A DNA stretch of 64,000 nt from positions 1 through 64,000 of the forward strand of contig JAPOQK010000103.1 of assembly GCA_026710795.1 (NCBI GenBank), given 5' to 3'. Origin of the DNA: Candidatus Poribacteria bacterium (GTDB lineage: Bacteria > Poribacteria > WGA-4E > WGA-3G). Position 1 is the stretch's first letter. The number at the start of each line of letters is the position of its first letter. A model generated the notes under the pieces. The model was not told the origin of the DNA and ran no database searches. It was given only the letters and a program-made list of their open reading frames with translations. Below, one piece after another: positions 2,471-20,669 of the stretch. A program made the position numbers and the translations under genes.

Positions 2471-2502
2471 ATGTAACCTTTTTGTCTGTATTGCATTCTT
2501 AC
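2471..2502 (+). promoter_or_regulatory. Two-box motif, copy 1 (candidate ECF promoter)
   Basis: ATGTAACCTT, 10 nt, then TTGCATTCTTAC. The same two boxes with the same 10-nt gap recur at 3241-3272, while surrounding and gap sequence differ. GTAACC-type -35 boxes are known for several ECF sigma groups. The copy lies about 105 nt upstream of the sigma gene at 2609 and 23 bp from the divergent lipoprotein start. Autoregulation is inferred. Confidence 0.6.
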
Positions 2503-2608
2503 ATTATATCAGTATATCAACTTTACATTATCAAGTGTATCAATTAATATATGCTTTATATTTACAGATTGTCAATACAGGTCTGATAGGAATAGAGGTT
2601 GGAGTGAT

Positions 2609-3226
2609 ATGGAAGAGTGGCACGACGAAGAATTAGAACATCAAAATATAGACGTTAGTGATGACAACACATTTGAAATCCTCTATCACCGTTATGAAGG
2701 ACCACTTCTCAGTTTCTTCTATCGACGGGTAGGGAATTGGGAAACCGCGCAAGACCTTGTACAAGAGACATTTATCAAAGTGCATCAAAATCTCAGCACA
2801 CTGCGTAATCCCAAAAGTTTTTCCAGTTGGTTGTATAAAATCGCCCATCAACTCATTGCGGCACACTTCCGTAAGGAGAATAGAAAACTTGAAATTGGAT
2901 CACTTGAAGGGAATCCTGAAGCATATCTGGTAGACCTTGAACATCGTTCTCCTATTTATCGAATCATTGCCAAAGAACAGATGGAGATAGTTTATGGACT
3001 GGCGCAACGGCTACCTATCTCCGAACAGGAAGTATTCGAATTGAAACTTGTAAATCCTAAAATAAAACTGGAAGAAATTGCTAAAAAATTGGATATTACT
3101 TTGTCAGCGACGAAAGTTCGCTTGCATCGTGCTAAGAAAAAGGTTGTCGCATGGATGAAGACTGAATATCCCGGAGAATTTGACAACATATTTGGAAAAC
3201 AAGAGGATACAAAACAGATTAAATAA
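2609..3226 (+). CDS. ECF-type RNA polymerase sigma factor
   Basis: A 205-residue sigma-70 family factor of the short extracytoplasmic-function type. Region 2 covers about residues 22-90 (FEILYHRYEGPLLSFFYRRV, then AQDLVQETFIKVHQNL and the FSSWLYKIAHQLIAAHFRK segment). Region 4 covers about 130-190, with the helix-turn-helix LEEIAKKLDITLSATKVRLH. The start at 2609 follows a GGAG-containing purine stretch. The gene is followed at once by two repeat proteins and then ferredoxins. The two-box motif upstream of it and of the next gene suggests it drives its own small regulon. No anti-sigma factor is visible nearby, so control may be transcriptional or through the neighbouring unknown proteins. Confidence 0.92.
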   Translation: MEEWHDEELEHQNIDVSDDNTFEILYHRYEGPLLSFFYRRVGNWETAQDLVQETFIKVHQNLSTLRNPKSFSSWLYKIAHQLIAAHFRKENRKLEIGSLEGNPEAYLVDLEHRSPIYRIIAKEQMEIVYGLAQRLPISEQEVFELKLVNPKIKLEEIAKKLDITLSATKVRLHRAKKKVVAWMKTEYPGEFDNIFGKQEDTKQIK

Positions 3227-3240
3227 ACAAGATATTTTAT

Positions 3241-3272
3241 ATGTAACCTTTTCAACCGATTTGCATTCTTAC
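3241..3272 (+). promoter_or_regulatory. Two-box motif, copy 2 (candidate ECF promoter)
   Basis: ATGTAACCTT, 10 nt, then TTGCATTCTTAC, identical boxes and spacing to 2471-2502. If GTAACC acts as -35 and ATTCTTAC as -10, transcription would start near 3278, leaving a leader of about a dozen bases with the ribosome binding site (AAAGGAGG) for the gene at 3291. It lies 14 bp after the sigma gene's stop, so the repeat-protein genes can be switched on separately. Confidence 0.65.
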
Positions 3273-3290
3273 TTTACAAAGGAGGAACAC

Positions 3291-4001
3291 ATGACACCGA
3301 ATGATGTCAAGGAATTGCTAAAATCCTTAATTTCAGAGGAAGGTCTTCCAATTGATCTTATTGATATAGCACCTTCACAAGACTTTCGTTCATTGGATTC
3401 CACAATGGAATCACGCATCAAAGATGTTATTCATCAGTGGAACACAGAAGGTAAAATATACACGCGCCATCCTGGTAGAACTGAAATTATGGAATTCTAT
3501 AGCAAAACCGATTCTGACTCTGCTGCGATTGAATTATTGGAATCTTTAGACGTTGAAGTACTTCTTAAAACTATCATTACTGAAGAGAATTTTCCGTTCT
3601 GTTTTACTAATCAAGGTTTTCGATTAATTACATTAGCAGAGGATGATACAACAAATTACCCAGTAAAAGTACTTCACGGTGGATTTAGTTTAGAGAATAA
3701 GTCTAAAGATAGGTTACAGTCACTACAACTTAAAGGTGTAGTAAAACGGTTTGAGAAGATTCTTAAGGAGAAACGCGTAAAGGCAAAATTGTTTCATAGA
3801 GGTATTAGTTTAGAAAAGATTTCGGAAGAAGACATGCTTATCTCACAAGTTAAATCAATTGCAAAAAAGATAGATGACACTCTTGGTATAAACTATGTAC
3901 TAAATTCATACAATTACTTACATTCTGATGCAGAAGAAAGGGATTCTGCCTTAAAAAGTGCAAGTATCTGCATCTCTCTGTGGCGTTTTCCACGACGGTA
4001 A
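3291..4001 (+). CDS. Repeat protein of unknown function, paralogue 1
   Basis: A 236-residue protein starting MTPNDVKELLKSLISEEGLP; the ATG at 3291 follows AAAGGAGGAACAC, so longer upstream starts are rejected. No signal peptide or membrane segment. It contains a degenerate repeat of about 35-45 residues: an amphipathic helix, then a short strand and a G-F/I-x-L-E motif (TNQGFRLITL, LHGGFSLENK, FHRGISLEKI). The next gene is a paralogue with the same start (MTPN-[DE]-V-x-[E]-LL) and the same repeat. I do not recognise the family; the alternating pattern suggests repeated alpha/beta units that might bind another protein. Its position behind the candidate ECF promoter suggests it is a target or a modulator of the sigma factor. 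Confidence 0.75.
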   Translation: MTPNDVKELLKSLISEEGLPIDLIDIAPSQDFRSLDSTMESRIKDVIHQWNTEGKIYTRHPGRTEIMEFYSKTDSDSAAIELLESLDVEVLLKTIITEENFPFCFTNQGFRLITLAEDDTTNYPVKVLHGGFSLENKSKDRLQSLQLKGVVKRFEKILKEKRVKAKLFHRGISLEKISEEDMLISQVKSIAKKIDDTLGINYVLNSYNYLHSDAEERDSALKSASICISLWRFPRR

Positions 4002-4046
4002 CTTTCAGAAAGATAAACAAACTTAGTATCGGTAGGAGGATGAACA

Positions 4047-4790
4047 ATGACCCCGAATGAAGTCAATGAACTACTTGATAAATTAATCGCTAAACTCAAT
4101 CTACCAATATACTCCTCAAATAGGGGACCGCAGTTGGTAAGTGATAACGCATTTAGAGAAACACAAGAAGGTATGGATAAGGTAATAAAACAATGGATGA
4201 ACGGATGTGGTAGAAGCCATTCTATTTCTGTTGGAAGAACGATTCCTGTTATGGAGAAGTGCATTTCCAGTCTCGCATTAGAGACACATCGCACACCAGA
4301 AGTTAAGGAAATTCTGGAATCCTTAATCGCTGAACGTTCATTACCGGTAGAGGTTGTTAATCGTGGTTATAAATTGGAAGTAATTGCTAAAGATGGAATC
4401 TTCTATCATGATGAAGATATGACCCAACTTCAAGCATTAATAAAAAAAGAAGACTTAGATGTTGCAGTGCGACATTGCGGATTTAATTTAGAAAAAAAGG
4501 AAAACAGTCCTGAACTGCAGTATTCAGATGCCGAAATTCTAATGCAACACCTTGCATCATCATTAGAAGAACATGGTTTACAAGTTAAATTACTCCCACA
4601 TGGCTTCGATTTGGAGAAAAATCAAGACGATGAAATAGATATAGCTGAGATAAAGGAGATAGCTTTTCGTTTAGAGATTATGGTTGGTATCCGCTATGTC
4701 CAAGGCGGTTATACTTATTCAAACGACGTGCAAAACAAAGAAATTCACTGGTATTCTGCTCAATTAAATCCTGCCTTACCAGTGCTTTGA
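4047..4790 (+). CDS. Repeat protein of unknown function, paralogue 2
   Basis: A 247-residue cytoplasmic-looking protein starting MTPNEVNELLDKLIAKLNLP, with GGAGGA upstream of the ATG. At least four repeat units are visible: EILESLIAERSLPVEVVNRG + YKLE; LQALIKKEDLDVAVRHCG + FNLE; the unit around residues 165-196 ending LLPHGFDLEK; and IKEIAFRLEIMVGIRYVQGG. Each pairs a helix with a strand and a GxxLE turn. It lies 45 bp after paralogue 1 in the same direction, so the two are probably co-transcribed. About the first 20 residues and the repeat layout are shared. Function unknown; the pair probably arose by tandem duplication. Confidence 0.75.
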   Translation: MTPNEVNELLDKLIAKLNLPIYSSNRGPQLVSDNAFRETQEGMDKVIKQWMNGCGRSHSISVGRTIPVMEKCISSLALETHRTPEVKEILESLIAERSLPVEVVNRGYKLEVIAKDGIFYHDEDMTQLQALIKKEDLDVAVRHCGFNLEKKENSPELQYSDAEILMQHLASSLEEHGLQVKLLPHGFDLEKNQDDEIDIAEIKEIAFRLEIMVGIRYVQGGYTYSNDVQNKEIHWYSAQLNPALPVL

Positions 4791-4808
4791 GATAACAATG
4801 TAGAATTG

Positions 4809-4838
4809 TTGGACGTACTAAAACTTACAATTTATAAT
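4809..4838 (+). promoter_or_regulatory. Possible promoter of ferredoxin 1
   Basis: TATAAT at 4833-4838 lies about 50 nt before the ferredoxin start; TTGGAC at 4809-4814 is a poor -35 with an 18-nt spacer. The -10 box is good and the -35 box weak, so confidence is low. Confidence 0.3.
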
Positions 4839-4888
4839 GAGAAAATGAGAAGTTAATCAGATTAAAGCACATATAGGAAGATTGAAAA

Positions 4889-5155
4889 ATGACTTATGTA
4901 ATATGCGAACCGTGCATTGACGTAAAAGATAACGCGTGCACAATTGTTTGCCCCGTTGAATGTATATACCCAATGCAAGACGAAGATCCAGAAGAATTTG
5001 AAGAAGTCAATCAACTTTACATCGACCCAGAAGAATGTATAGATTGTGCAATCTGCATAGATGAATGTCCCGTTGAGGCAATCTACGCAGATATAGATGT
5101 CCCAGAAGAATGGGAACATTTCATAGAAATCAACGCAGATTATTTTCAACAATAA
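4889..5155 (+). CDS. 7Fe-type ferredoxin, paralogue 1
   Basis: An 88-residue acidic ferredoxin. Cysteines 9, 17 and 21-Pro followed by 50, 53, 56 and 60-Pro give the classic C-x7-C-x3-CP ... CxxCxxCxxxCP arrangement of [3Fe-4S][4Fe-4S] proteins. Cys6 and Cys25 are additional. The tail EEWEHFIEINADYF matches the C-terminal helix typical of this group. It would act as a soluble low-potential electron carrier. It is the first of three tandem paralogues (4889, 5207, 5533) following the ECF sigma and repeat-protein genes. Its partner enzyme is not evident in the window; the thioredoxin-fold giants and polyferredoxin downstream are possible partners by position only. Confidence 0.92.
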   Translation: MTYVICEPCIDVKDNACTIVCPVECIYPMQDEDPEEFEEVNQLYIDPEECIDCAICIDECPVEAIYADIDVPEEWEHFIEINADYFQQ

Positions 5156-5162
5156 ACATTTA

Positions 5163-5190
5163 TTGACAATTTAGCAAATATGTATATAAT
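5163..5190 (+). promoter_or_regulatory. Promoter of ferredoxin 2
   Basis: TTGACA (5163-5168), 16 nt, TATAAT (5185-5190): both boxes match the sigma-70 consensus exactly. The expected leader is about 10 nt, containing AAGGAGA before the TTG start at 5207. Thus the middle ferredoxin seems to have its own housekeeping promoter in addition to any read-through. Confidence 0.7.
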
Positions 5191-5206
5191 ATAAGGAGAC
5201 AAAGCA

Positions 5207-5488
5207 TTGACTTACGTAATATGTGAACCCTGTGTTGATGAAAAGAATAGTGCATGCGTTGATGTCTGTCCATGTGATTCCATACAACCATATCCTGAGT
5301 ATGACGCAAAAGACTATGAAGGTGTAAATCAACTTTTCCTTGATCCAGAAACATGCATTGAATGTGGAGTGTGTGAGCCGGAGTGTCCTGTGGAGGCTAT
5401 ATATTTTGAAGAAGATGTTCCCAAAAAATGGGAGCATTACATCCAAATAAACGCTGATTATTTCAACAAACAAAATATTGGTGTTTAA
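5207..5488 (+). CDS. 7Fe-type ferredoxin, paralogue 2, with a displaced cysteine
   Basis: A 93-residue paralogue of the preceding ferredoxin; the start is TTG at 5207, supported by AAGGAGA nine bases upstream and by alignment of MTYVICEPC with its two sisters. Canonical ligands C9, C17, C21 and C50/53/56/60 are kept. The extra cysteine found at residue 25 in both sisters is Ser here, while residue 23 has become Cys (CPCDSI instead of CPV[ED]CI). The C-terminus is five residues longer (KQNIGV). In Azotobacter-type 7Fe ferredoxins a free cysteine near this place can influence or ligate a cluster, so redox behaviour may differ. It has its own consensus promoter. Confidence 0.9.
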   Translation: MTYVICEPCVDEKNSACVDVCPCDSIQPYPEYDAKDYEGVNQLFLDPETCIECGVCEPECPVEAIYFEEDVPKKWEHYIQINADYFNKQNIGV

Positions 5489-5532
5489 ATTAACAACTTG
5501 TACGTTCTACTTAAATAGAAAGGAGATTTATA

Positions 5533-5796
5533 ATGACGTATGTTATATGTGAACCATGCATAGACGAAAAAGACTCTTCTTGTGTTGATGTGTGTCCGGT
5601 GGATTGCATTCACCCACATCCAACTGATGCAGAGGATGAATTTGAAGAGGTAGAAATGCTCTACATTGATCCAGAAGAATGCATTGATTGTGGTGTATGC
5701 GAACCGGAATGTCCCGTTGAAGCTATCTTCATGGAAGAAGATGTACCGGAAGAATGGGAACATTTCATAGAAATCAATGCAGCATACTTTGAGTAG
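5533..5796 (+). CDS. 7Fe-type ferredoxin, paralogue 3
   Basis: An 87-residue ferredoxin starting at ATG 5533 after AAAGGAGATTTATA. Cysteines 6, 9, 17, 21 and 25, then 50, 53, 56 and 60, are placed as in paralogue 1, predicting one [3Fe-4S] and one [4Fe-4S] cluster plus two extra cysteines. The segment YIDPEECIDCGVCEPECPVE is conserved through the trio. Net charge is strongly negative. It lies 44 bp after paralogue 2. Triplication of nearly identical carriers, with at least two separate promoters, suggests distinct expression rather than distinct chemistry, except for the cysteine change in paralogue 2. Confidence 0.92.
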   Translation: MTYVICEPCIDEKDSSCVDVCPVDCIHPHPTDAEDEFEEVEMLYIDPEECIDCGVCEPECPVEAIFMEEDVPEEWEHFIEINAAYFE

Positions 5797-6306
5797 TAAC
5801 TCCAACCTATCTATATTGTAACATAAACTTTTAGCTTGTTTATTATACGAGAACTAAAAGTTTATGCTGCAATATTTGTAATAATAATAGTTTTCTATAA
5901 TGTGTCCGATTCACAAAAAACCACCCCTCCAATCTTTATTAAAAAAAACAACATATATTCAAATTCTAACTTCAACACATCCCGATTCTTAAGAAGCATA
6001 TCCCAAATTTTGAGTCGTTTTTCAGAACAAGAATACCAAATTACCTCAACCATAGAGCATATTTATTCTAGTTTTAGAATTATTGAATAATCTTCATTGA
6101 CAATAAAGCCTCTGAATCTTTTAACCATTCATTAAATAAAATAAACAATAGTAGTTTGTAACAGAATCTCTGTAAAAAAGTGATTTATCTGTAAATATAT
6201 TCTTAATCATCCTCTAATTTATGTATTTTTATGCAACCGACTCATCAATAAAACGCGTCACAGGATTTAAAGAGCAGTAAATACCAACAATTCCAAGAGG
6301 TGACAG
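5797..6306. other. 510-bp AT-rich intergenic region
   Basis: No convincing gene. An 84-codon frame from a TTG at 5836 has no ribosome binding site and is rich in Ile, Ser and Asn. A perfect 12-bp inverted repeat, ATAAACTTTTAG (5823-5834) and CTAAAAGTTTAT (5854-5865), with a 19-nt loop follows the ferredoxin genes. It could be a weak terminator, though no T-run follows. A candidate ECF-type promoter lies at 6232-6259. Confidence 0.6.
6232..6259 (+). promoter_or_regulatory. Possible ECF-type promoter of the sigma-WD40 gene
   Basis: TGCAACC (6232-6238) and CGTC (6256-6259) are separated by 17 nt, which resembles the AACC / CGTC box pair known from many ECF promoters. It lies about 45 nt before the ATG at 6307. 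It differs from the 2471/3241 motif in its -10 box, so it may belong to the second sigma factor itself. Short motif; weak statistical support. Confidence 0.35.
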
Positions 6307-9300
6307 ATGAAACACAACGATTCTGAACTCATCAAACGGGTCCTTACTGGTGATGATGACGCATTTTCAGTATTAGTGACAAAGTACCAGAAGCACGTTC
6401 ACGCACTTGCATGGCGAATTGTCGGTGATTTTCATATCGCTGAAGAAATCACTCAAGACTCCTTCCTATTAGCATATAAGGAATTGAAAAAACTGAAGGA
6501 ACCACAACGTTTTGCTGGTTGGTTGTCTGTAATTGCCAGACGTTGTTGTTTTGCTTGGTTGCGCAAAAAACGTGTGTGGACAGAATCCTATGAACATCTG
6601 GAAGAATCAGACAGTGAGCCAATAGAAATAACTTTGTATTCTGAATATGTTGTTGAAGAGAAAAAACGTACTGCGGTAGAAGAGCAACAGTATGTTGTGA
6701 AAAAATTGCTTGCGAAGTTGCAAGAGAGTGAACGCACTGTTATGACTTTGCATTACTTCGGAGAAATGACATGTGTAGAAATCGGTGAATTCTTAGGAGT
6801 ATCTGCAAATACGGTGAAAAGCAGACTTCACAGAGCACAGCAACGACTAAAGAAACAAGAACCGATGATTAGAGAGGCGTTGGAACATTACAATATCTCC
6901 CCATCTCTCACAGAAAACATCATGCAGGAAATTGTTAATACAAAACCCATTACGCCATCAACAGGAAAACCTTTTGTTCCATGGTTAGCAGCTGCTTCAA
7001 CATTTGTTTTAGTACTAATCATGTTGGGTATTGGAAACAATAGCAATTTAGCACTTTTTCAGCAACCTTATAGTTTAGATGCCAACTCAGATGTACCAGT
7101 TGAATTAGTTGAAGCTCCAGTTGTGGAACACGTTGTATTTGAGGCGGACACGCGTAAACTAATTGGTAGTATAAAATCATCACATCGAAATCCAGTTTCA
7201 AAACAACAACCTGATGATGTACAACTACTATCTGGAGAAGCAGGAATGAAAAATAATATAGAGAATTATCCGCAATGGAATCTGCCAAAAGAAGCGAAAA
7301 TGCGTTTAGGTAAGGGTGGTATGGATACCATTCAATTTTCTCCAGATGGAATGCAGCTTGCAGTGGGTAGTCGTATCGGTGTGTGGCACTACGATGTCCA
7401 AACAGGAGAAGTGATCTCACTAACCCCCAATTTGCATCGTTCAGTTGTGTATTCACCTGATGGTCGTTATATCGCATCGGCAGGTGGAGATCCAACATCG
7501 AGTTTCGGTGGTACTCCTCTTGAAATAGGAGTTGTGTTGTGGGATGTAACAAAAGGAAGTGAAGTTTCAATAAATGATGAATTACCTGCAGCAAGAGTAA
7601 TGCGGTTTTCAAATGATAGTAAAACACTTGTGTTTTTGAGTTTGTCAAGACAGACGATATATAGGATAGATGTTGAAACAGGAGAGACATCTACGACAAA
7701 TATGGATGAAAGACCAGGTTACCTACATCTTGAAAAATACGCACTTACAGAAGACAGAATCGCTATCGGAAGTGATGAGGGAAGTATTGAGTTGTGGGAT
7801 ACAACGACAGGTCAGAAGATATCAACGCTCAGAAAATTTGGAAAAAAAGTACGTTTACCGGATTACCTCACAGAAACTAACCATGCATCAGCGTTGAAAT
7901 TCTCTCCTGATGGTAAAAAACTTGCCACTGGGAATTTAGATACTACGGTACAATTATGGGATACATCTACAGGTGAGGAATTGATCGTATTCCAAAAACC
8001 TATAGAAGGTAAGTCGTGGAAGGTAGCAAGAGAAAATGGAAAAACGATAGTAAATAATCCAATGAAAAATGAAAGAAATGGACAACCATTTACATTAGCA
8101 TTTTCTCCAGATGGCACAGTGCTTGCATGTGGAAGTGACGATTCTACAGTAAAACTGTGGAATACTACCACAGGGGAATTGATCGTTACTTTAACTGGAC
8201 AACTTAGTACTGTATTTGAATTAACTTTTTCACCAGATGGCAACATGCTTGCATGTGGAAGTTCTGATGGAACTGTCCGATTCTGGCATACCAAATTACG
8301 TAAAGCATTAAAAACACAAATCGCAGGACACATGTGGATAAGAACAGCATCTATGATAAAAGATAGTTCCAAACTGGTGAGTGTATCAGACAACGGTATT
8401 ATCTCTGTTTGGGATTTAGAGAAATCACATAAAACAACTTCCATAACAAAAGCCATGCTTGAAGAACCTTATTTTAGGGGATGGTATAGGGTCTTTGAGT
8501 TATCCCCTGATGGGACAAAACTTGGTAATCACGGTAGACAAAGTGATCCCTCCAAACCGAACTTCAATGGGAGGCTACTACGTTTGACTGATGTTAACAC
8601 GGGACACGATTTGGTGACATTTCCCAGTTCAACTCTTAGTAAATTTTCACCTGATGGAAAAACGGTGGCAAGTGGTAACGGTAATAAAATACGCATGTTG
8701 AATATTGAAACAGGTGAAAAACGTGAAATTATTTCCTTTGATCTTGATGACGATTCAGAAGAATATCAACCTCGTATCAGTAAATTGGCATTTTCCCAAG
8801 ATGGAGAGAGAATTATCAGCGGTACAAGGGGTGGATATGTTCAACTCTGGGATGTGGAAACTGGCATGGAGTTAAGTTCTTTCTTTGAGGATATACCTCC
8901 AATAGGAAATAGGCACAAAGAAACTATCCAGAACTTTGCCTTCTCTTCAGACGGTTCTCTTATTGCTGTGGGAACTACGAAACGGATCAGAATGATAGGA
9001 AGAGCGAATCAACCACATTTTAAAGAAAAAACATTTGATAGCTTAGGATCTTCCCACACATTTATTTTTTCTCCGGATGATACAATACTAATTGTCTGTT
9101 TCTATGGTGGGAACATTGAATTATGGGACGTTCCAACTGGAGACTTACTCACTACACTTGATGGACATACGGTATCCGTTAGGGATTTATCTTTTTCTCA
9201 TGATAACAAAACTCTCATCAGTATTGGTGGTGGAACCATTCTATTTTGGGATTGGGAGAAAATCATTGCGAATGCACGAGCAGAGGAAATAAAAGATCCG

Positions 9301-10476
9301 GATGAGGTTAACTTTACCTCTGAAGAACAAACTAATGAAACCGTGTTACAATTCCAGGAACATTCACCACAAAAACCCAAAACTTCAGATCGTATCTTGA
9401 CAAAAGGAGAGATATATCTGGCAAACGAATGGTATGATGAGGCATATCAAGAATTTATGAAGAACATATCAGCTGCAGATTATAGAGGGGATCAGAACGT
9501 CACAACATCACCAAGTTTCCAACGTAATTTGTTCTCGAATATTGGTAATATTGGTAAAAATGTTCAAGACAAAGATGGTTTCATTGAAATGATGAAAAAA
9601 TTAATTGACTCTTTTCCAGATAGTCCGAGCATCCAATTGAATGCCCACTTGATGTGGACCGAATTCTATAACGAGTGTGGAATGCCTGATATTTCAGGTC
9701 AGCACCTTCAGAAAATCCATTACATAATTGCAGAAATACCTAAAGAAAGACCAACCTTACAAATAGATGCTAATCTCATCATTGCAGAATATTATTTTGA
9801 GAATGAAATCATTGACAAGGCAGTTGAGCATTTACAAAATATTGACAAAATAACAAGAAACCTTACTCCGAAGCAATCGAACATAAAGGTAAATGCTAAC
9901 TTCGCTATGGCTGCATTCTATCGTAAATACGACCTGATTGAAGAGGCAGATGAACTTATTAATAACACAGGATTTGTTACTGAAGATGCATGGATGGTAC
10001 TCGGACCATTTGACAATGCGGGGGGAATCGGTTTTGATACTGCCTACATTCCTGAAGACCTGACACAGATTGACATAGATGCAAAATTTGATGGACTTGA
10101 TGGTAAGGTGAGTTGGCAGAAATGTCCAGATGATCTACTGGATGGTATAGTAAGATTTTGGGAAAATACTGATTGGTCTGTAGGCTATGCTTTTGCAACC
10201 GTTGTCTCTCCTGATGATAGAGATGTCCAATTCCGATTCGATAGTGACGATCAAGGTAAGGTATGGCTGAATGGAAAAGAGGTATTCACGCATACAAAAT
10301 CCTTTAAAGTAGAATTTGATAGATATATGTTTCCAGTAAAGTTAAAGAAAGGCATTAACAGTATTCTCGTTAAGGTATGTGAGGAGGAAGGTGGATGGGC
10401 ATTTATCTTGCGAATCACAGACCAAGATGGACAAGCCTTTGATGACTTGAAAATCAATCGTGTAGACCAATACTAA
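6307..10476 (+). CDS. ECF sigma factor fused to TM segment, WD40 propeller(s), helical repeats and a C-terminal beta domain
   Basis: A 1389-residue protein. Residues 8-85 are sigma region 2 (YQKHVHALAWRIVGDFHIAE) and 130-185 region 4 (CVEIGEFLGVSANTVKSRLH). A single hydrophobic helix follows at about 222-243 (PWLAAASTFVLVLIMLGIGN). About 330-990 carry many WD40 repeats (LAFSPDGTVLACGSDDSTVK, then LWN). About 1020-1215 look like TPR-type helices. The last 165 residues (VLGPFDNAGG ... DSDDQGKVWLNGKEVF) form a beta-rich domain also found in the protein at 30280. Topology suggests a cytoplasmic sigma domain tethered to a membrane with a large sensor outside. Sigma-WD40 fusions are known from Planctomycetes. 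It heads a five-gene run to 16667. ATG follows AAGAGGTGACAG. Confidence 0.9.
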   Translation: MKHNDSELIKRVLTGDDDAFSVLVTKYQKHVHALAWRIVGDFHIAEEITQDSFLLAYKELKKLKEPQRFAGWLSVIARRCCFAWLRKKRVWTESYEHLEESDSEPIEITLYSEYVVEEKKRTAVEEQQYVVKKLLAKLQESERTVMTLHYFGEMTCVEIGEFLGVSANTVKSRLHRAQQRLKKQEPMIREALEHYNISPSLTENIMQEIVNTKPITPSTGKPFVPWLAAASTFVLVLIMLGIGNNSNLALFQQPYSLDANSDVPVELVEAPVVEHVVFEADTRKLIGSIKSSHRNPVSKQQPDDVQLLSGEAGMKNNIENYPQWNLPKEAKMRLGKGGMDTIQFSPDGMQLAVGSRIGVWHYDVQTGEVISLTPNLHRSVVYSPDGRYIASAGGDPTSSFGGTPLEIGVVLWDVTKGSEVSINDELPAARVMRFSNDSKTLVFLSLSRQTIYRIDVETGETSTTNMDERPGYLHLEKYALTEDRIAIGSDEGSIELWDTTTGQKISTLRKFGKKVRLPDYLTETNHASALKFSPDGKKLATGNLDTTVQLWDTSTGEELIVFQKPIEGKSWKVARENGKTIVNNPMKNERNGQPFTLAFSPDGTVLACGSDDSTVKLWNTTTGELIVTLTGQLSTVFELTFSPDGNMLACGSSDGTVRFWHTKLRKALKTQIAGHMWIRTASMIKDSSKLVSVSDNGIISVWDLEKSHKTTSITKAMLEEPYFRGWYRVFELSPDGTKLGNHGRQSDPSKPNFNGRLLRLTDVNTGHDLVTFPSSTLSKFSPDGKTVASGNGNKIRMLNIETGEKREIISFDLDDDSEEYQPRISKLAFSQDGERIISGTRGGYVQLWDVETGMELSSFFEDIPPIGNRHKETIQNFAFSSDGSLIAVGTTKRIRMIGRANQPHFKEKTFDSLGSSHTFIFSPDDTILIVCFYGGNIELWDVPTGDLLTTLDGHTVSVRDLSFSHDNKTLISIGGGTILFWDWEKIIANARAEEIKDPDEVNFTSEEQTNETVLQFQEHSPQKPKTSDRILTKGEIYLANEWYDEAYQEFMKNISAADYRGDQNVTTSPSFQRNLFSNIGNIGKNVQDKDGFIEMMKKLIDSFPDSPSIQLNAHLMWTEFYNECGMPDISGQHLQKIHYIIAEIPKERPTLQIDANLIIAEYYFENEIIDKAVEHLQNIDKITRNLTPKQSNIKVNANFAMAAFYRKYDLIEEADELINNTGFVTEDAWMVLGPFDNAGGIGFDTAYIPEDLTQIDIDAKFDGLDGKVSWQKCPDDLLDGIVRFWENTDWSVGYAFATVVSPDDRDVQFRFDSDDQGKVWLNGKEVFTHTKSFKVEFDRYMFPVKLKKGINSILVKVCEEEGGWAFILRITDQDGQAFDDLKINRVDQY

Positions 10477-10584
10477 ATTTGTAGAACAAACTATATGAAG
10501 ATAATAAGGTTATTTGGTTCAGACAACAATAGTCTGTCATGATCCAATTTGACTATTATTTATAAAGACAAAGGAGAAAAAACT

Positions 10585-11319
10585 ATGAAAGACCTTTCTC
10601 GTCAAACTGTTGAATCACTAATGGAAGCGTATGATAATGAATACAATTCACAGAAACCAAATAGGAAACCAGCGTCCTCCATTCAGATTAGAGAGGTAGA
10701 TGAAAATACCAAAGATCCGCGGGTCGAATTAACTCAACAGATGTTCGTTGAACAAAGTATTACTATACGTGAATATTTTGATAGATCAGATTTCTCAAAA
10801 CCAGAATATTTTGCCTTTAAGACCGACAAATCCACAGGTAAAAGACGTATCCTTGAGTATACTTTAGGTGATATAGACGCTAAATTTCCACGCAACGAAT
10901 GGATTCAGATGCTACTTGACAAAGGTGTAACGATAGAAGTTTACGAGGACTATGAAGAATATCTTAACATCCGACAGTGTTTGTTTTCTCAACTCTACCT
11001 TTGTCCCGAGGGTTCGGAGGAATTTGATCAATCTGCATATATTGATAAGGAAATTCAACAGTATCAACTTATCCAAGAAGCAAGGTGTAACAATCCAGAT
11101 GTAGAAAACTGGTCTGTGATTGGAGAAAATGCACTGCCCTCTGTCGCTGGGAGAATGTATGTTTGCAAAACTGAATCTGGCTACGAGATCAAGTCAAGTA
11201 AGACTCAAAACTCCGAACCTAAACTTTCTGAAGAACAACAAACCAAACTACAGAATGAAGGCATAGAACCTGAAGGATGGGAAGTAGTCTATATTGATGA
11301 AAAAGGAAACATGCTTTAA
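10585..11319 (+). CDS. Hypothetical acidic protein
   Basis: A 244-residue soluble protein; the ATG at 10585 follows AAAGGAGAAAAAACT, which excludes the longer frame from 10549. No signal peptide, membrane helix or cysteine motif is seen. The sequence is rich in Glu, Gln and Tyr, with a low-complexity middle and a C-terminal GWEVVYIDEKGNML. I do not recognise a domain. It lies between the sigma-WD40 gene and the first thioredoxin-fold giant (35 bp to the next start), so it probably belongs to the same transcription unit and may be a partner or adaptor in that system. Confidence 0.7.
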   Translation: MKDLSRQTVESLMEAYDNEYNSQKPNRKPASSIQIREVDENTKDPRVELTQQMFVEQSITIREYFDRSDFSKPEYFAFKTDKSTGKRRILEYTLGDIDAKFPRNEWIQMLLDKGVTIEVYEDYEEYLNIRQCLFSQLYLCPEGSEEFDQSAYIDKEIQQYQLIQEARCNNPDVENWSVIGENALPSVAGRMYVCKTESGYEIKSSKTQNSEPKLSEEQQTKLQNEGIEPEGWEVVYIDEKGNML

Positions 11320-11354
11320 CATACACGGATCAAACATAAAATCGGAGAATAATT

Positions 11355-13739
11355 ATGTCCGAAAAATACGATTCCACAGATTATTGGTATACCTTTATCA
11401 ACTCATTTCCAAACAAAGGATTCTCCTTAGGAATAGGTGAAATGGAGATGGAGGAGGAGATTCAGGAAAAACTCCTTGCATACCTCAAAGAAAAGATCGA
11501 GGAGGGTGTTATTGATGATGTGACTACGCTTCCACCCAGAATGTATGATTATTTTTGGCGGTTTCCAAAGGAGATTCTTACAAAACTAAGAGCATTAGCT
11601 GAAGGTTTTCTTGAAACAGATCCAGACAATGCTGCGGCAATGATAATATTAACAATCGTAGCAGGTTGGGAGAGGGATCCTGAATACTTGACGTACAGAG
11701 AAAACATGCGGAGATTAGCACCGAATGATCCTGTCGTGAATTTAATTATCATTGATGAATTCCACCGTAACGGTTCTTTGAGTGGAAAATTTGATGGGTT
11801 GGAAACATTCCTCAACGTGCTTGAAAACCTATATGAATGGGCAAAGAATGAAGGTGAAACTGATCGTTATCAAGATGTAAAGTCTGCTTATAATGACATT
11901 GGCAGAAGTCCCGGTACACCTTATGGAAGAGCAAAGAAAAAACTTTTGGATCTCAAGGAAGAACCTGAAGATCCAACACTCCAAAAGGAACGTAGTGACC
12001 AAATTGAAAAGTGTAAAACTCGGATTGAAAGGTGTTTATATCTGTTCCGTCAGGAACATGCAGCATTCAATAAAGAATTACTGAAAGAACCGGACGAACA
12101 ACAAGATTTCGGTGATCCAACATCCGATAAGATTGATTTCTGGGAGACCTATCTCAATTCGCTTGATGACAAAGAATTGTCAAGTCGTAATTGGAAACTC
12201 ACACCTACAATACAGGAACAACTTCTGAAGTATTTCAAAATGAGGATTGAAATGGGTGTTGTTGATGGAAAGACGACGTTGCCATCCGAACTAAAGAAGT
12301 ATATTTCAAGATTTCCAAGAATCATGCGTATTGAACTTCGAGAATTTGCCGAAGATATCCTTGAAAAACATCCGAACAATGGGGCAGCAGCGAAATTATT
12401 AGCAATTATTGTGGATGAAAAAGAATTCCCCTACCTTAATCAAGCAATAGAATTGTTACCTAACGACACAGAGATATGCTTTTTAGCGTATAAACAGTAT
12501 GATAATCCCTTTGCTGAACAGGATTTCTCGCTTTTTGAACGGACTATTCGTATTCCAGAAATGTTATTTGCAAGGACGCAGCAGGAAGGTAGTTCAGCAT
12601 TGTATGATTGTATTGTAAGACTGTATAAAGATATGGGTAGTACACCGTGCCAAATCTATCGAACTCTAATGCAACATCCAGAAGGGAACACCGAACTGAT
12701 TGAAAGGTGTATACCCCTGATTAATCAGGCTGAACAAGCCTTTCAGAAACGACTTGAAGAACATCCTGACGATTGGTATGCATTACGCGGACTTGGTGAT
12801 ATATATGAAACATTAGGTGAAACCGAATTGGCAGAAAAATATCCATGGGAACCACATCCAGAATTTAAATGGAAACAAAAAGCATGGGTTGGAAGACAAC
12901 TTCCCAATTTTACAGCGACCACACTTGATGGCAAATCAATATCTTTCTCTGACTACCGTGGCAAATTGGTATTACTTAATTTCTGTGCTAAGTGGTGTGG
13001 ATTCTGTAAACCAGAGATTCCCCATATCAAACAGGCTTATGATGAACATCACAATAACGGATTTGAAGTCATCGGCATTAGTTTAGATAAAAGCGAAGCG
13101 GAACTTCGAGAATATATTGAGGAATATGATATTCCGTGGATACAGATTTTTGATGGAAAAGTTTGGAAAAGTGAACTTGCCCAGTATTTTGGAGTCAACA
13201 GTGTACCATCGCATTGGCTCATTGATCGAAATGGGAGGATCCTTTCTGTTAATACCAGGGAAGAGAGATTGGTACAACAGATCAATTGGATAGAATCATC
13301 ACGAGTTGGGAACATAATCCCAGAATTCTCAGCTGTTGATATAGATGGAAATACTGTTTCACCTTCCACATTTAGAGGGAAAGTTGTCTTACTTTATTTG
13401 GGTTTCCCCGAACAAATAGCAGAGCGATTAAATCCAATATACGCAAAATATCATCCCAAGGGTTTTGATGTTTTTGGTATAAGCATATTTGTCAATTCAA
13501 GCGAAGATGAACTACGTGCCAAAGTACGTGAAAATAAATTTTCAGGACAATTCATTTATGATGGTGATGACTGGAAAGGACCGCTGGCGCGCCAATTTGG
13601 TATCACTTTTGCCCGGTTGAAACCGACTATGCTTTTGATTGATAAGAATGGAAAGATTCTTATGTCTCGTTACGAAAAGGTACATTCCCCAGGTGAATGG
13701 TGGGCAAAACTTGAAGAACTTGTTTCTAAACATCTTTAG
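11355..13739 (+). CDS. Cytoplasmic TlpA-like double thioredoxin-fold protein, paralogue 1
   Basis: A 794-residue protein without signal peptide. Two N-terminal repeats of about 100 residues (about 6-105 and 257-355) share D-Y/F-W-x-T-Y/F-x-N-S, LTP-x-[IV]-Q-E-x-L, G-V-x-D-x-x-T-x-LP, R-F-P and P-[DN]-N-x-AA. A TPR-like piece near 470-500 reads DDWYALRGLGDIYETLGETE. Residues 515-645 form an AhpC/TlpA-type thioredoxin fold with active site W547-C-G-F-C551 and FDGK ... GVNSVPSHWLID. Residues 655-790 form a second thioredoxin-like fold without CxxC. TlpA relatives are normally exported disulfide reductases, so a cytosolic version suggests a thiol redox sensor or reductase. A paralogue follows; ferredoxins flank the run. 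Confidence 0.88.
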   Translation: MSEKYDSTDYWYTFINSFPNKGFSLGIGEMEMEEEIQEKLLAYLKEKIEEGVIDDVTTLPPRMYDYFWRFPKEILTKLRALAEGFLETDPDNAAAMIILTIVAGWERDPEYLTYRENMRRLAPNDPVVNLIIIDEFHRNGSLSGKFDGLETFLNVLENLYEWAKNEGETDRYQDVKSAYNDIGRSPGTPYGRAKKKLLDLKEEPEDPTLQKERSDQIEKCKTRIERCLYLFRQEHAAFNKELLKEPDEQQDFGDPTSDKIDFWETYLNSLDDKELSSRNWKLTPTIQEQLLKYFKMRIEMGVVDGKTTLPSELKKYISRFPRIMRIELREFAEDILEKHPNNGAAAKLLAIIVDEKEFPYLNQAIELLPNDTEICFLAYKQYDNPFAEQDFSLFERTIRIPEMLFARTQQEGSSALYDCIVRLYKDMGSTPCQIYRTLMQHPEGNTELIERCIPLINQAEQAFQKRLEEHPDDWYALRGLGDIYETLGETELAEKYPWEPHPEFKWKQKAWVGRQLPNFTATTLDGKSISFSDYRGKLVLLNFCAKWCGFCKPEIPHIKQAYDEHHNNGFEVIGISLDKSEAELREYIEEYDIPWIQIFDGKVWKSELAQYFGVNSVPSHWLIDRNGRILSVNTREERLVQQINWIESSRVGNIIPEFSAVDIDGNTVSPSTFRGKVVLLYLGFPEQIAERLNPIYAKYHPKGFDVFGISIFVNSSEDELRAKVRENKFSGQFIYDGDDWKGPLARQFGITFARLKPTMLLIDKNGKILMSRYEKVHSPGEWWAKLEELVSKHL

Positions 13740-13821
13740 AATTCTCATAAAATACCACAATTAACCATAGTTTTTACATCTATCTGGACTCTATCTGATA
13801 ACAAATTAATGGAGAATTAAG

Positions 13822-16182
13822 ATGGACAAATACGATTCAACTGATTATTGGTATACGTATCTACATTCACTTAAAAACCGTGGACAGTTGAGAGGAAATG
13901 AGGAATTGGAGATGGATATAGATGTTCAGGAAAAACTTCTTGCTTACTTCAAAACTAAATTCGAACTTGGCGTTTCTGATGGACAGACAGCACTTCCACC
14001 CAACCTATACGATTACATTCCGCGCATTCCGACAGAGATGTTATCCAAACTACAAGTGTTAGCCAACAGTGTACTTGAGAAAAATCCTGACAACGGCGCA
14101 GCAGTTATCGTTTTAGTTATCGTAGCACACCAGATGGACTATTCGGAATACGAGTCTCTTGTGGAAAAAGCAATGGTCCTGGCACCGAAAGACCTTGCAC
14201 TAATTTTACATCTACTTCACTGTTACACACGCACAACTGGCGGTGGTGACGAAAGGCAGGAAATTGCCATCACTGCGCTGGAAAACTTGTTTGAATGGGA
14301 AAAGCAGCAAGACGATACGCCACTATATCAAGAAGTACAGTTTTGCTATTGGGATATTGAGATAACACTTTATGACATCTATAAAGACCTTAGACTACAC
14401 CGTTGCGATGTATCACTTGCGCCACGGATACGTGCTTTAGCACCTCTGGAAAAGACAGCGTTCCCAAAAGTAGTAATACAAAAAACCGAAACGTTGGAAC
14501 TTTTGCTTCAGAAAACGACCAAAGATTCTGATTTTTGGGAGGTTTATCTTGACTCTCTTGAAAACCGTGGACTCTCAACAGATTCATGGGAACTCACGCC
14601 CCAGGTACAAGCGAAACTTGTAGAAGCTCTCAAAACAAAGATTGAAATAGGTGTTTCGGAAGGATTAACTTTGCTCCCTTCTCAACTCCCTAAGTACGTT
14701 TCTCGTTTTCCAGAATCCATGCGTTTTGAACTCCGTCTTTTCGCTGAAGATGTGCTCAAAACTCAGCCTGACAACGGTGCAGCAGCGAAGATATTAGCTA
14801 TCATTGTTTGGAATGATAAAAACATTTTTTATGGAGAAAACGATGGCGACTATTTATACATTGAACAGGCAGTTGCCTTAGCCCCAAACGATACAGAAAT
14901 ATGTTTTTTTGCTATTAGTCGTTATGGCAGAAACGATCCCTTGTTTAAGCTGACACTCACCACACTTGAAAGGTTATTTGAAGCGGCAAAACAACATGAC
15001 CAATCCGGATTGTATCACTGGTTGACACATCTATACAAAGAGGAAGGCAAAACACCTTGCTATATCTATCGGAGTTTGATGAAAAGTCCCGAAGGAAACG
15101 CCGAACTGCTTGCAAAGTGCAAACCCTTGATTAATCAAATGCAACATGCATTTCAGCAGAAACTTGATAATGAACCGAATGACTGGTACGCTTTACGTGG
15201 ACTCGGTGATATTTATGAAACATTAGGTGAAACCGAATTAGCAGAAAAATATCCGTGGGCAGGTCATGAAGATAAATTAAAAGTTCGGTGGAATCAGAAA
15301 GCATGGGTGGGAAGACAATTCCCCGGTTTTTCCGCGGTTACTCTTGATGGAACACCGATATCGTTTTCAGACTACCGAGGTAAATTGGTACTTCTCGATT
15401 TCAGTGCAAAATGGTGTCCCTTCTGTGCTCCAGAAATTCCGTATATTAAAGAGGTATACAAAGAATATCACGACAAAGGCTTTGACGTAATCGGTGTGAG
15501 TCTGGATGAAAGCGAAGCGGAACTACGGGAATATATTGAGGAGCATGAAATTCCGTGGATACAGATTTTTGATGGAAAAGGTTGGAAAAACAAACTTGCC
15601 CAGTTTTTCGGTATTAACAGTATTCCTTCACAGTGGCTCATTGACAGGGATGGAACGATTCTCTCTGTTGAAACAAGAGAAGAACAACTTGGTCAACTTG
15701 TGAAGTGGACAGAGACCGCACGCATAGGAAATGTGATTCCAGATTTTACTGCGGTTGATGTAGATGGAAATTCAATATCAACCACTACATTACGAGGGAA
15801 AATTGTCTTACTCCATTTCGGTTACATTGACCAAGAACAAGAACTTACGGATATTGACACACTATACGAGAAATATCACAAAAACGGGTTTGAGGTAATT
15901 GGTTTCAATATTAGCAGTTGGGATGCCAAAGCATTACGCAACTTTGTTCACAGTAAAAGCCATAAAGGACACTATATCTATGCATCTCCTGATGGAGAAC
16001 AAGCTGCACTGAGTGAACAGTTCGGATTCACACAGCGTTCAGGAAGAAGTAATCTTCCTGCCTTTATCCTGATTGATATTGATGGTAAAGTCATTGAGGC
16101 ACGTTCTGGCAAAGTGCATTCACAGGAAGCATGGGCAGCAAGTTTAGAAAAGTGTGTGGTTACACATCTTGGATTGTGCTAA
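13822..16182 (+). CDS. Cytoplasmic TlpA-like double thioredoxin-fold protein, paralogue 2
   Basis: A 786-residue tandem paralogue of the preceding gene with the same architecture: two copies of the DYWYTYLHS-type N-terminal repeat (about 5-105 and 232-330), the conserved DWYALRGLGDIYETLGETEL segment, a TlpA/AhpC-type domain with W531-C-P-F-C535, and a C-terminal thioredoxin-like domain lacking CxxC. The change from WCGFC to WCPFC should alter the redox potential, since the two residues between the cysteines tune thioredoxin folds. The start follows TGGAGAATTAAG. It lies 82 bp after paralogue 1 and 26 bp before the polyferredoxin, consistent with one operon. Role inferred: thiol-disulfide exchange in the cytosol. 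Confidence 0.88.
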   Translation: MDKYDSTDYWYTYLHSLKNRGQLRGNEELEMDIDVQEKLLAYFKTKFELGVSDGQTALPPNLYDYIPRIPTEMLSKLQVLANSVLEKNPDNGAAVIVLVIVAHQMDYSEYESLVEKAMVLAPKDLALILHLLHCYTRTTGGGDERQEIAITALENLFEWEKQQDDTPLYQEVQFCYWDIEITLYDIYKDLRLHRCDVSLAPRIRALAPLEKTAFPKVVIQKTETLELLLQKTTKDSDFWEVYLDSLENRGLSTDSWELTPQVQAKLVEALKTKIEIGVSEGLTLLPSQLPKYVSRFPESMRFELRLFAEDVLKTQPDNGAAAKILAIIVWNDKNIFYGENDGDYLYIEQAVALAPNDTEICFFAISRYGRNDPLFKLTLTTLERLFEAAKQHDQSGLYHWLTHLYKEEGKTPCYIYRSLMKSPEGNAELLAKCKPLINQMQHAFQQKLDNEPNDWYALRGLGDIYETLGETELAEKYPWAGHEDKLKVRWNQKAWVGRQFPGFSAVTLDGTPISFSDYRGKLVLLDFSAKWCPFCAPEIPYIKEVYKEYHDKGFDVIGVSLDESEAELREYIEEHEIPWIQIFDGKGWKNKLAQFFGINSIPSQWLIDRDGTILSVETREEQLGQLVKWTETARIGNVIPDFTAVDVDGNSISTTTLRGKIVLLHFGYIDQEQELTDIDTLYEKYHKNGFEVIGFNISSWDAKALRNFVHSKSHKGHYIYASPDGEQAALSEQFGFTQRSGRSNLPAFILIDIDGKVIEARSGKVHSQEAWAASLEKCVVTHLGLC

Positions 16183-16208
16183 ATTAACAGATAGGAGGAA
16201 TCACAGAA

Positions 16209-16667
16209 ATGGCATATTATATAACCGAAGAATGTATCGGATGTATACAGTGTTTAGACAATTGTCCGGTTGAAGCAATTACCGGGGATCGCAACAAACT
16301 CCACATCATTGATCCAAATATTTGTATCGACTGTAGTGCTTGCGGCATGGTATGTCCTGTGGAAGCAATTCGTGACCAATTTGGCAATGTATGCAAGTTT
16401 ATACCTCGTCCCTCACATCGACCCATAGCCGTCATCTACGAAGAACTATGTTCTGGGTGCGATTTCTGTGTGCAAATTTGTCCGTGGGAATGTCTTGAAA
16501 TAATCGACCCGAACACAAATAAACACGCAGATAGCTTCTTCGGTATCTGTGAACTCGTAAAACCTAAGGATTGTGTCGGTTGTCTACTGTGTGAAGAAGT
16601 TTGCATTAAAGACGCTATCCGCGTTGAATCACCAGTGTTGCTTGAACTCGCTGAGGCAGCAGATTAA
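16209..16667 (+). CDS. Polyferredoxin with four [4Fe-4S] motifs
   Basis: A 152-residue soluble protein with four complete CxxCxxCxxxC motifs: C9-12-15-19, C39-42-45-49, C81-84-87-91 and C122-125-128-132, predicting four [4Fe-4S] clusters arranged as two tandem two-cluster modules. Extra cysteines occur at 62, 95 and 114. The ATG follows TAGGAGGAATCACAGAA. It lies 26 bp after the second thioredoxin-fold gene, so electrons could flow from a ferredoxin chain towards the CxxC domains; that is inferred from position only. A strong bidirectional terminator follows. No oxidoreductase flavin or molybdenum subunit is encoded nearby. Confidence 0.93.
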   Translation: MAYYITEECIGCIQCLDNCPVEAITGDRNKLHIIDPNICIDCSACGMVCPVEAIRDQFGNVCKFIPRPSHRPIAVIYEELCSGCDFCVQICPWECLEIIDPNTNKHADSFFGICELVKPKDCVGCLLCEEVCIKDAIRVESPVLLELAEAAD

Positions 16668-16746: not shown

Positions 16747-16753
16747 TGTGTAA

Positions 16754-16828
16754 TACCCCCGACGAGATTTGAACTCGTGTCGCCGCCGTGAAAGGGCGGT
16801 GTCCTTGGCCAGGCTAGACGACGGGGGC
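16754..16828 (-). tRNA. tRNA-Glu (anticodon TTC)
   Basis: The minus strand folds as a cloverleaf: acceptor GCCCCCG with CGGGGGT (G-T at the end pair), anticodon stem CCGCC/GGCGG around CTTTCAC, and T arm ACGAG-TTCAAAT-CTCGT. The anticodon is TTC. No CCA is encoded after the discriminator A. It lies 11 bp downstream of tRNA-Lys, probably on the same transcript. Confidence 0.93.
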
Positions 16829-16839
16829 ATAATAATAAG

Positions 16840-16912
16840 TGAGCCGTACAGGAATCGAACCTGTGACCACCTGATTAAAAGTCAGATGCTCTACCTGCTG
16901 AGCTAACGGCTC
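16840..16912 (-). tRNA. tRNA-Lys (anticodon TTT)
   Basis: The minus strand gives acceptor GAGCCGT with ACGGCTC, a D arm GCTCAGC...GAGC, anticodon loop CTTTTAA (anticodon TTT) and T loop TTCGATT. All stems pair. No CCA is encoded. It precedes tRNA-Glu in the same direction and follows purA. Confidence 0.95.
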
Positions 16913-17010
16913 AAATTCACAAAATATTATGATACAACGTTTTTAGGAAAATGTCAAGTTAAAGTGAAAAAATAATTGTAAATTACATATCCGGCGGGAG
17001 TGGTATCAAA

Positions 17011-18327
<1,317 letters not shown>

Positions 18328-18353
18328 TTAACTGAACTGGAAATATGAAAAGA

Positions 18354-18749
18354 TTAACGTTTTGAAAATTGGAAACGTGCACGTGCACCTTTCTGTCCAT
18401 ACTTTTTACGTTCAACCATCCGTGGATCACGGGTTAAAAATCCACCCTTTTTCAATGTAGGCTTCAACGATTCATCCGCCTTTACGAGTGCCCGTGCAAG
18501 CCCGTGAGAAATAGCACCAGCTTGACCTGTGTTACCTCCACCGCGTACATTCACGTGGACTGCAAATTCACCGAGTCGCTCAACGTGTTCCATAGGCCGT
18601 CGCGCTACCTGAACGTGGTCAGAACGATCAAAATACTCCTCAAGTGGTTTCTTATTCACTGTAATACTACCTTCACCACCAGGAATAATACGAACACGCG
18701 CAACAGAGGTTTTACGCCTACCTGTTCCCCAATACTGTTCTATAGCCAT
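18354..18749 (-). CDS. rpsI: Ribosomal protein S9
   Basis: A 131-residue small-subunit protein. [14 protein letters not shown] at the N-terminus, [20 protein letters not shown] in the middle and the basic tail [17 protein letters not shown] are diagnostic of uS9; the tail ends in the universal SKR that reaches the P-site tRNA. The ATG follows TGAGGAGTAT. It lies 15 bp after rplM, the conserved L13-S9 pair of bacteria and archaea, and so is co-transcribed from the consensus promoter at 19267-19295. Confidence 0.98.
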
Positions 18750-18764
18750 ATACTCCTCAACAAA

Positions 18765-19202
18765 TTAAAATGTTAATACTTCCGGATCCTGTGCCTGGTG
18801 CGGATGGTTCGGACCTGTGTAAACCTTCAAACCCTTCATTAACTTGGCACCGAGACTATTTTTCGGAATCATCCCTTTTACTGCGGATGTTATTATATAC
18901 TCAGGGTTGCGTTCCATCTGTTCATTGTAGGTGCGATATCTATCACCACCAGGATAACCACTATGACGGAAGTATATTTTCTGTTCAGCCTTATTGCCAG
19001 TGACCACGACCTTCTCTGAATTTATCACAGCAACACGATATCCTAAATCCGCGTGTGGTGTAAAACCAGGGTCATGTTTCCCTCTCAGAACTTGTGCAAT
19101 TTGGGATGCTAATCGTCCGAGTACTTGCCCTTCTGCATCTACAACGTACCATTTTATTTCTTTATCGGATTTAGGAAAGTAAGTCTTTGTTTTCAATACC
19201 AT
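18765..19202 (-). CDS. rplM: Ribosomal protein L13
   Basis: A 145-residue large-subunit protein uL13. Motifs WYVVDAEGQVLGRLASQIA, LRGKHDP, VVTGNKAEQKIYFRHSGYPG and AVKGMIPKNSLGAKLMKGL are all typical, and the length is normal. The start at 19202 has a modest ribosome binding site (AAAGGT). It heads the rplM-rpsI(-purA) transcription unit with a consensus sigma-70 promoter about 65 bp upstream. Assembles early in the 50S subunit by family knowledge. Confidence 0.98.
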   Translation of the reverse strand: MVLKTKTYFPKSDKEIKWYVVDAEGQVLGRLASQIAQVLRGKHDPGFTPHADLGYRVAVINSEKVVVTGNKAEQKIYFRHSGYPGGDRYRTYNEQMERNPEYIITSAVKGMIPKNSLGAKLMKGLKVYTGPNHPHQAQDPEVLTF

Positions 19203-20570: not shown

Positions 20571-20669
20571 AGAGATATTTGCTAACAAGTAAAAAATATA
20601 GCAAAATAAGTTTAAAATGTGGTAAACTCTATCGTAAAGTCACTCTTACTGTCTGAGGAGACGTCCAAT

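Follow-up and report, generated by a model that had tools for sequence, protein, structure and literature searches.

A promoter-like motif accompanies a sigma factor gene, repeat proteins of a family found only in Poribacteria, and FdxA-type ferredoxins

Poribacteria are described in PMC3909097 as dominant and widespread members of sponge microbial communities. We analysed a 64,000-nucleotide (nt) stretch of one Candidatus Poribacteria genome (positions 1 to 64,000 of contig JAPOQK010000103.1; hereafter the window), which belongs to an assembly of 4.7 Mb in 114 contigs that is 94.4% complete. An initial annotation had read the genes between 2609 and 16667 as one redox island under two sigma factors, and the gene content and common direction that it described are borne out by the gene positions and by Pfam and NCBIfam, against which the proteins were typed, with hydrophobicity calculated by the Kyte-Doolittle method. 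All of the named genes were found, every one on the plus strand, and typing supports an extracytoplasmic function (ECF) sigma factor (SIG1), three small FdxA-like ferredoxins (Fd1 to Fd3), an ECF sigma-WD40 fusion (SIGWD), two redoxin giants of thioredoxin fold (T1 and T2) and a Fer4 protein (PFd); R1, R2 and U gave no Pfam match above cut-off. The proposed island is, however, two adjacent units: module A (2473-5796), with SIG1, R1, R2 and the three FdxA-type ferredoxins, and module B (6307-16667), with the sigma-WD40 fusion, U, the two giants and the polyferredoxin. Our main new result is a promoter-like motif in module A, whose features are as follows.

2473-2501, plus strand: P1, promoter-like motif GTAACCTTTT-N11-CATTCTTA, exact, upstream of SIG1
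2609-3226, plus strand: SIG1, ECF sigma factor with regions 2 and 4 only, 205 amino acids (aa)
3243-3271, plus strand: P2, motif copy between SIG1 and R1, also exact, 19 nt ahead of the R1 ATG
3291-4001, plus strand: R1, repeat protein (236 aa) whose family was found in Poribacteria only
4047-4790, plus strand: R2, paralogue of R1 with serial helix-hairpin units, 247 aa
4889-5155, plus strand: Fd1, FdxA-like 7Fe-type ferredoxin
5207-5488, plus strand: Fd2, FdxA-like 7Fe-type ferredoxin, faster evolving
5533-5796, plus strand: Fd3, FdxA-like 7Fe-type ferredoxin

SIG1 matches Sigma70_r2 (65.4 bits; cut-off 24), Sigma70_r4_2 (30; cut-off 25.7) and TIGR02937 (76.9; cut-off 42.9). The motif was derived by aligning SIG1 upstream sequences, the two-block pattern coming from loci in which SIG1 stands first; because only first-gene sites were used, the sites before R1 and those unlinked to the locus are separate finds. 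The window contains two exact matches, one before SIG1 and one before R1, against a chance expectation of 0.13 per window at up to three mismatches. Across the assembled 4.7-Mb genome there are two sites in all at up to two mismatches, and these are the same two exact copies.

The arrangement of module A is conserved among relatives. An R1 profile search of 84,980 species genomes retrieved 28 named loci, all from Poribacteria, and similarity to the window proteins was used to annotate 40 stretches from related genomes. In 28/28 named loci the labelled gene directly before R1 is SIG1, with a gap of less than 100 nt except in L124 (about 0.8 kb) and L130 (about 0.9 kb), and R1 lies beside SIG1 in every locus examined, G001 having an additional copy farther along. 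R2 comes next in 27 of the 28 (it is missing in L130, and L134 has a 57-aa piece only), as do ferredoxin genes, L122 stopping at a contig edge. The conservation of gene order that had been put forward as a check on the island holds for module A, and fails for module B, which is absent, broken or elsewhere in many relatives. Ratios of nonsynonymous to synonymous substitution (dN/dS) point to purifying selection on SIG1 (0.07-0.10), R1, R2 and the ferredoxins. The genes purA, rpsI and rplM flank the locus in some genomes of both carrier genera, which suggests that this is its ancestral place.

The motif accompanies this arrangement. In a plus-strand scan of the window and the 28 named loci, allowing up to three mismatches, 29/29 have a site ahead of SIG1 or, where one or two thioredoxin-fold genes precede SIG1, ahead of those; in L123, L128, L129 and L134 it overlaps or sits just inside the mechanical start of the first open frame, so the true start there must be later. 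A site also lies 19-24 nt before the R1 ATG in 28/29, with an AGGAG-like stretch between, the exception being L124, where it lies about 680 nt upstream of that ATG. The AAC of the upstream block is invariant among aligned sites. Among 84 genomes of the phylum, a site with at most one mismatch is present in 35 of 36 that encode R proteins and in 3 of 48 that do not, and a reversed-pattern control gave a single match. G011, the one R-bearing genome without such a site, carries versions with three mismatches at both of the usual positions. The R-less genomes with a site are G040 and G065 (single mismatch each) and G067, in which the motif precedes a thioredoxin-fold gene and SIG1 before the contig ends.

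Sites unlinked to module A were also found. One full-length T-type gene has an exact site 86 nt upstream in G005, a one-mismatch site about 87 nt upstream in G007 and G015, and a one-mismatch site about 400 nt upstream in G016. Since these sites precede T genes, the giants appear to be tied to SIG1 in some genomes, though not through a site in this window. Further sites lie before the second R1 in G001, before a 434-aa redoxin gene in G007, and 256-330 nt upstream of WD40 proteins in G001 and G030, and one in G061 has no such gene beside it. A small zinc-ribbon-like protein (DnaG-type, below the Pfam cut-off), orthologous in G005 and G015, likewise has a site upstream (L166:5254-5625 and L168:5352-5711).

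The R proteins define a family found only in Poribacteria. A profile search detected it in 36 of 84 genomes of the phylum, all in two genera (17/18 in that of the window, 19/38 in its sister), with one or two matches per genome in the sister genus and one to nine, pieces included, in the genus of the window; G006 has one R piece on a separate contig, and R2 forms tandem arrays in some related genomes. Ferredoxin fragments inside two such arrays (L110:9742-9921 and L111:14233-14494) are probably remnants of duplication. The description of R1 as an unknown repeat protein stands, with its start moved from the mechanical TTG at 3180 to the ATG at 3291. In the two main comparison sets, dN/dS was 0.10-0.21 for R1 and 0.12-0.23 for R2, and 0.09-0.35 for members of amplified arrays. 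The predicted structure of R2 is confident (pLDDT, the predicted local distance difference test, 94.9) and consists of a series of helix plus beta-hairpin units; that of R1 is weaker (pLDDT 77.1), with residues 30-72 mostly poor. Neither model matched a PDB fold at E<=0.001 with Foldseek, nor did R2 match a viral model at that threshold, and the R profile found nothing convincing among PDB sequences (best E 0.14). R is thus a new protein family, confidently modelled in R2, that has no counterpart among solved structures at that threshold.

Several assignments for the R proteins were considered and set aside. Likeness to aspartokinase regulatory domains is limited to weak matches (TM-score at most 0.24 by query and 0.35 by target), and BmrR-type matches scored lower still; neither was used. 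Compared with Pfam, 68 R members gave weak matches only, six of them to PSP1/RicT (PF04468; best E 0.00023). A PF04468 search of 30 genomes gave none over the cut-off, and four of the 20 weak matches listed fall in R2 genes (E 0.36-0.67); membership is rejected, and a very distant kinship to PSP1/RicT may still exist. R1 is a poor candidate for a thiol sensor, as no cysteine column exceeds 54%. An origin in phages, plasmids or other mobile elements was rejected given that no R relative was found in viral contigs or plasmids with R1, or in phages with R2, and that the purA flank occurs in both genera. A role in anti-phage defence was likewise dismissed: PADLOC matched one of eight proteins, as HEAT-ARM_XIII on the WD40 stretch of SIGWD, in a scan that left Fd1 to Fd3 and T2 outside.

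Fd1 to Fd3 were annotated as 7Fe ferredoxins, and reading of their sequences agrees, each carrying the cysteine pattern for a 3Fe-4S and a 4Fe-4S cluster. Among distinct ferredoxin relatives scoring above 80 bits, with shorter fragments left out, both motifs are kept in 63 of 65, and the other two are frames that end early. Like FdxA 7Fe ferredoxins, the three have both cysteine motifs and match FdxA models best in NCBIfam. They differ in falling below the curated cut-offs (for Fd3, 94.4 against 125 and 52.5 against 65 for the equivalog models) and in their setting, one to three consecutive copies placed after a sigma factor and repeat proteins. In a survey of stand-alone FdxA across 12 genomes, the island-less G023 and G027 have one copy, elsewhere, and the island-bearing G024 and G034 have a separate FdxA besides the island copies. 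Apart from a fusion of about 430 aa, no stand-alone FdxA-type gene other than the three island copies was found in the window genome or in G014. A possible parallel pairing occurs in G049, a distant genome without R proteins, where four small FdxA-type genes surround a 452-aa sigma-70-domain protein (L200:8023-10989).

We consider it probable that module A is a small autoregulated ECF regulon for redox or iron-sulfur maintenance, in which SIG1 reads GTAACCTTTT-N11-CATTCTTA promoters. SIG1 would direct RNA polymerase to a first promoter upstream of the first gene, which is SIG1 or a preceding thioredoxin-fold gene, and to a second upstream of R1, which would drive R1, R2 and the 7Fe ferredoxins. 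With promoters at these two places, activation would raise SIG1 and its partner proteins along with the ferredoxins and, in some genomes, the thioredoxin-fold proteins as well. We infer SIG1 as the reader from co-occurrence, as 45 of 48 R-less relatives lack the motif, and the redox or iron-sulfur role of the response is suggested by the target genes. R1 may be a regulator of SIG1 or an adapter, the R2 copies may be effectors or adapters open to amplification, and module B would be another unit headed by a sigma factor, which came to lie alongside. Comparative genomics here points to a sigma factor together with its likely promoter and targets, and the proposal is testable in Escherichia coli without the native host. 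Our literature searches found no regulon described for any Poribacteria sigma factor and no description of this locus, including in the available parts of the Poribacteria papers PMC3909097, PMC5087111 and PMC8546597, most subscription papers being out of reach; the view that this sigma-linked redox gene set is so far undescribed is upheld within that literature.

Autoregulation, AAC in the -35 box and CGT in the -10 box are usual for ECF factors according to PMC8103513, and module A resembles these group IV regulons in its two-domain sigma factor, in the AAC of its -35-like block and in the motif before the sigma gene and its neighbours (PMC8103513). It differs in that no recognisable anti-sigma factor lies beside SIG1, R1 of an unknown family occupying the usual anti-sigma position, and in that the window genome has sites only at the locus itself. 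In SigR-RsrA thiol-redox regulons, the sigma factor raises its own gene and thioredoxin-type genes and is paired with a zinc anti-sigma factor. Our proposal shares with them a sigma factor raising its own gene and thioredoxin-type genes; no zinc anti-sigma factor was found beside SIG1, however, and its constant neighbours are ferredoxins and R proteins.

Several observations weigh against this interpretation. The -10-like half of the motif is CATTCTTA and not the CGT named as usual in PMC8103513. The genome of the window has 65 matches to sigma region 2, so another sigma factor could read the motif. The reversed pattern, too, matches twice in this genome once two mismatches are allowed, and the weight therefore rests on the exactness and place of the two sites. 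The 28 named loci were retrieved through R1, and they are not independent of the related-genome stretches, since many are the same contigs. Neither R1 nor R2 has an anti-sigma match in Pfam or NCBIfam, models that an unrelated new kind could escape, and R1 lacks a conserved cysteine. Finally, the remaining T copies in G005, G007, G015 and G016 have no site, and some unlinked sites precede WD40 genes or the zinc-ribbon-like protein, which a simple redox story does not predict.

A more speculative extension of the regulon, which we hold only tentatively and regard as doubtful, is that R1 and R2 are new sigma partners, built of serial helix-hairpin units and devoid of conserved thiol-sensing cysteines, that keep SIG1 bound and sense the condition of the ferredoxins. 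Oxidised or cluster-less ferredoxins would free SIG1, which would rebuild the pool, and amplification of R2 would tune the response. If true, the only stand-alone FdxA-type ferredoxins found in the window genome would sit under a self-switching circuit.

Alternatively, the motif could serve as an operator, recognised by R1, R2 or some other regulator that the locus encodes, and SIG1 would act elsewhere. In keeping with this, the motif is tracked by R1 and R2, and for R2 there is a confident model but no assigned function. The layout, with blocks at fixed spacing, AAC in the upstream block, a position 19-24 nt before the R1 ATG and AGGAG between, is nevertheless that of a promoter, and we judge an operator rather unlikely. 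G067 does not separate these two readings because its contig ends after the thioredoxin-fold gene and SIG1.

Beyond module A, the window continues with module B and a conserved flank.

6255-6272, plus strand: conserved leader element upstream of SIGWD, unlike P1 and P2
6307-10476, plus strand: SIGWD, 1389 aa, start of module B, with ECF sigma factor, hydrophobic stretch, WD40 propeller and C-terminal part
10549-11319, plus strand: U, protein of unassigned family, with TTG as mechanical start
11355-13739, plus strand: T1, 794 aa, TPR-like units and two redoxin domains, WCGFC once, no hydrophobic stretch
13822-16182, plus strand: T2, 786 aa, T1 paralogue (52% identity), WCPFC once
16209-16667, plus strand: PFd, polyferredoxin with four 4Fe-4S motifs
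16753-19202, minus strand: flank of tRNA-Glu, tRNA-Lys, purA, rpsI and rplM

The strongest hydrophobic stretch of SIGWD begins at residue 224 (Kyte-Doolittle 2.24), and PFd has the four Fer4 stretches expected of the four-cluster polyferredoxin that had been annotated. The SIGWD leader is common to 8 of 10 upstream regions compared, absent from those of G009 and the first of G016, and has a single match in the window genome. In several relatives, the leader of the sigma-WD40 gene contains a GTAACCTTTT-like block with another downstream block.

A full-length T gene is present in 15 of 18 genomes in the genus of the window, and its linkage to module A varies. T adjoins module A on one contig, together with the sigma-WD40 gene and polyferredoxin, in G000 (the window genome), G001, G002, G006 and G017, the sigma-WD40 gene and some T copies of G006 being broken frames. 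Among these five, U occurs only in G000 and G001, and its C-terminal half recurs inside larger proteins of relatives. T lies on contigs other than that of module A in G003, G004, G005, G007 and G015, and is reduced to a 71-aa remnant in G008, which lacks the sigma-WD40 gene; linkage is not judgeable in G011 and G013, because their module A contigs end just past it. In the sister genus, T stands directly after the ferredoxins and before purA in seven loci (L074, L087, L112, L118, L123, L129 and L134, the last being the named copy of L087).

These observations bear on the initial proposal that the genes form one redox island, controlled by both sigma factors, where the ferredoxins pass electrons to the CxxC domains of the giants. 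In its favour, all genes are co-directional, one T copy has the motif in each of four other genomes, and a thioredoxin-fold gene of roughly 440-500 aa lies immediately upstream of SIG1 in 15 of 28 named loci. The CxxC is also well kept: among 58 distinct T-type frames, 49 have [WFY]CxxC and six more a CxxC lacking that first residue (55 in all), and the three with none all come from G002 and its named record, one being cut by the stretch end. A single island under both sigma factors is nevertheless not supported, given the absence of any motif site within 6307-16667 of this window at up to three mismatches, the different leader of SIGWD and the separation of the two halves in several relatives: they are far apart on one contig in G009 (1.69 versus 5.19 Mb) and on different contigs in G016, and G012 and G014 keep module A with no full-length T.

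The giants themselves correspond in part to what had been described. AhpC/redoxin domains are present in both (AhpC-TSA at 122.4 bits in T1, by Pfam), and the best NCBIfam match of T2 is the ResA model, at 127.5 against a cut-off of 170. The absence of a signal peptide agrees with hydropathy, the one measure applied, with Kyte-Doolittle maxima of 1.06 and 1.29 and no hydrophobic stretch; the CxxC domains amount to one CxxC in each giant (WCGFC and WCPFC), the second redoxin domain having none. T1 and T2 thus share with TlpA/ResA proteins a redoxin domain with WCxxC, and for T2 the best-scoring model, and differ from them in their N-terminal TPR-like units, in a second redoxin domain without CxxC, in scoring below the ResA cut-off and in showing no hydrophobic anchor or signal peptide that would place them in the periplasm.

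Direct flow of electrons from ferredoxins to these CxxC motifs stays a conjecture. Flavin-type ferredoxin-dependent thioredoxin reductases are an alternative to the classical ferredoxin-thioredoxin reductase. The catalytic subunit of the classical enzyme (PF02943) is absent from 79 of 81 genomes, including that of the window, in a search that did not extend to flavin-type enzymes and is weaker evidence for that reason; the 79 are all of the searched genomes of this class, and the two with a match lie outside it. Because PF02943 is absent, the route would need a flavin-type enzyme, an unknown enzyme or direct transfer. We regard the single island as distinctly improbable, and favour module A as a regulon of its own.

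Finally, it is very unlikely that housekeeping ferredoxins merely neighbour an unrelated sigma/R pair. Such a reading draws on the 88-89% identity between Fd3 and the stand-alone FdxA of G023 and G027, and on dN/dS values of 0.01-0.02 for Fd1 and Fd3 relative to the window. Against it, ferredoxins come after R in 27 of 28 loci, some of them away from purA, P2 lies upstream of the whole R1-R2-ferredoxin row, and G024 and G034 keep their island copies despite a separate FdxA.

Three minor observations concern the rest of the window and its genome. Of the 65 sigma region-2 matches in G000, 64 are over the cut-off, and many sit within open frames some 1000 aa long, so that sigma fusion proteins are probably numerous in this genome. 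A 29-nt inverted repeat at 1682-1750 is 97% complementary and has a relative at 660-701; it resembles an element of the repetitive extragenic palindromic (REP) type. Downstream of rplM (20619-24021), a proteasome-type AAA ATPase and a Pup ligase are adjacent, forming a bacterial proteasome tagging locus.

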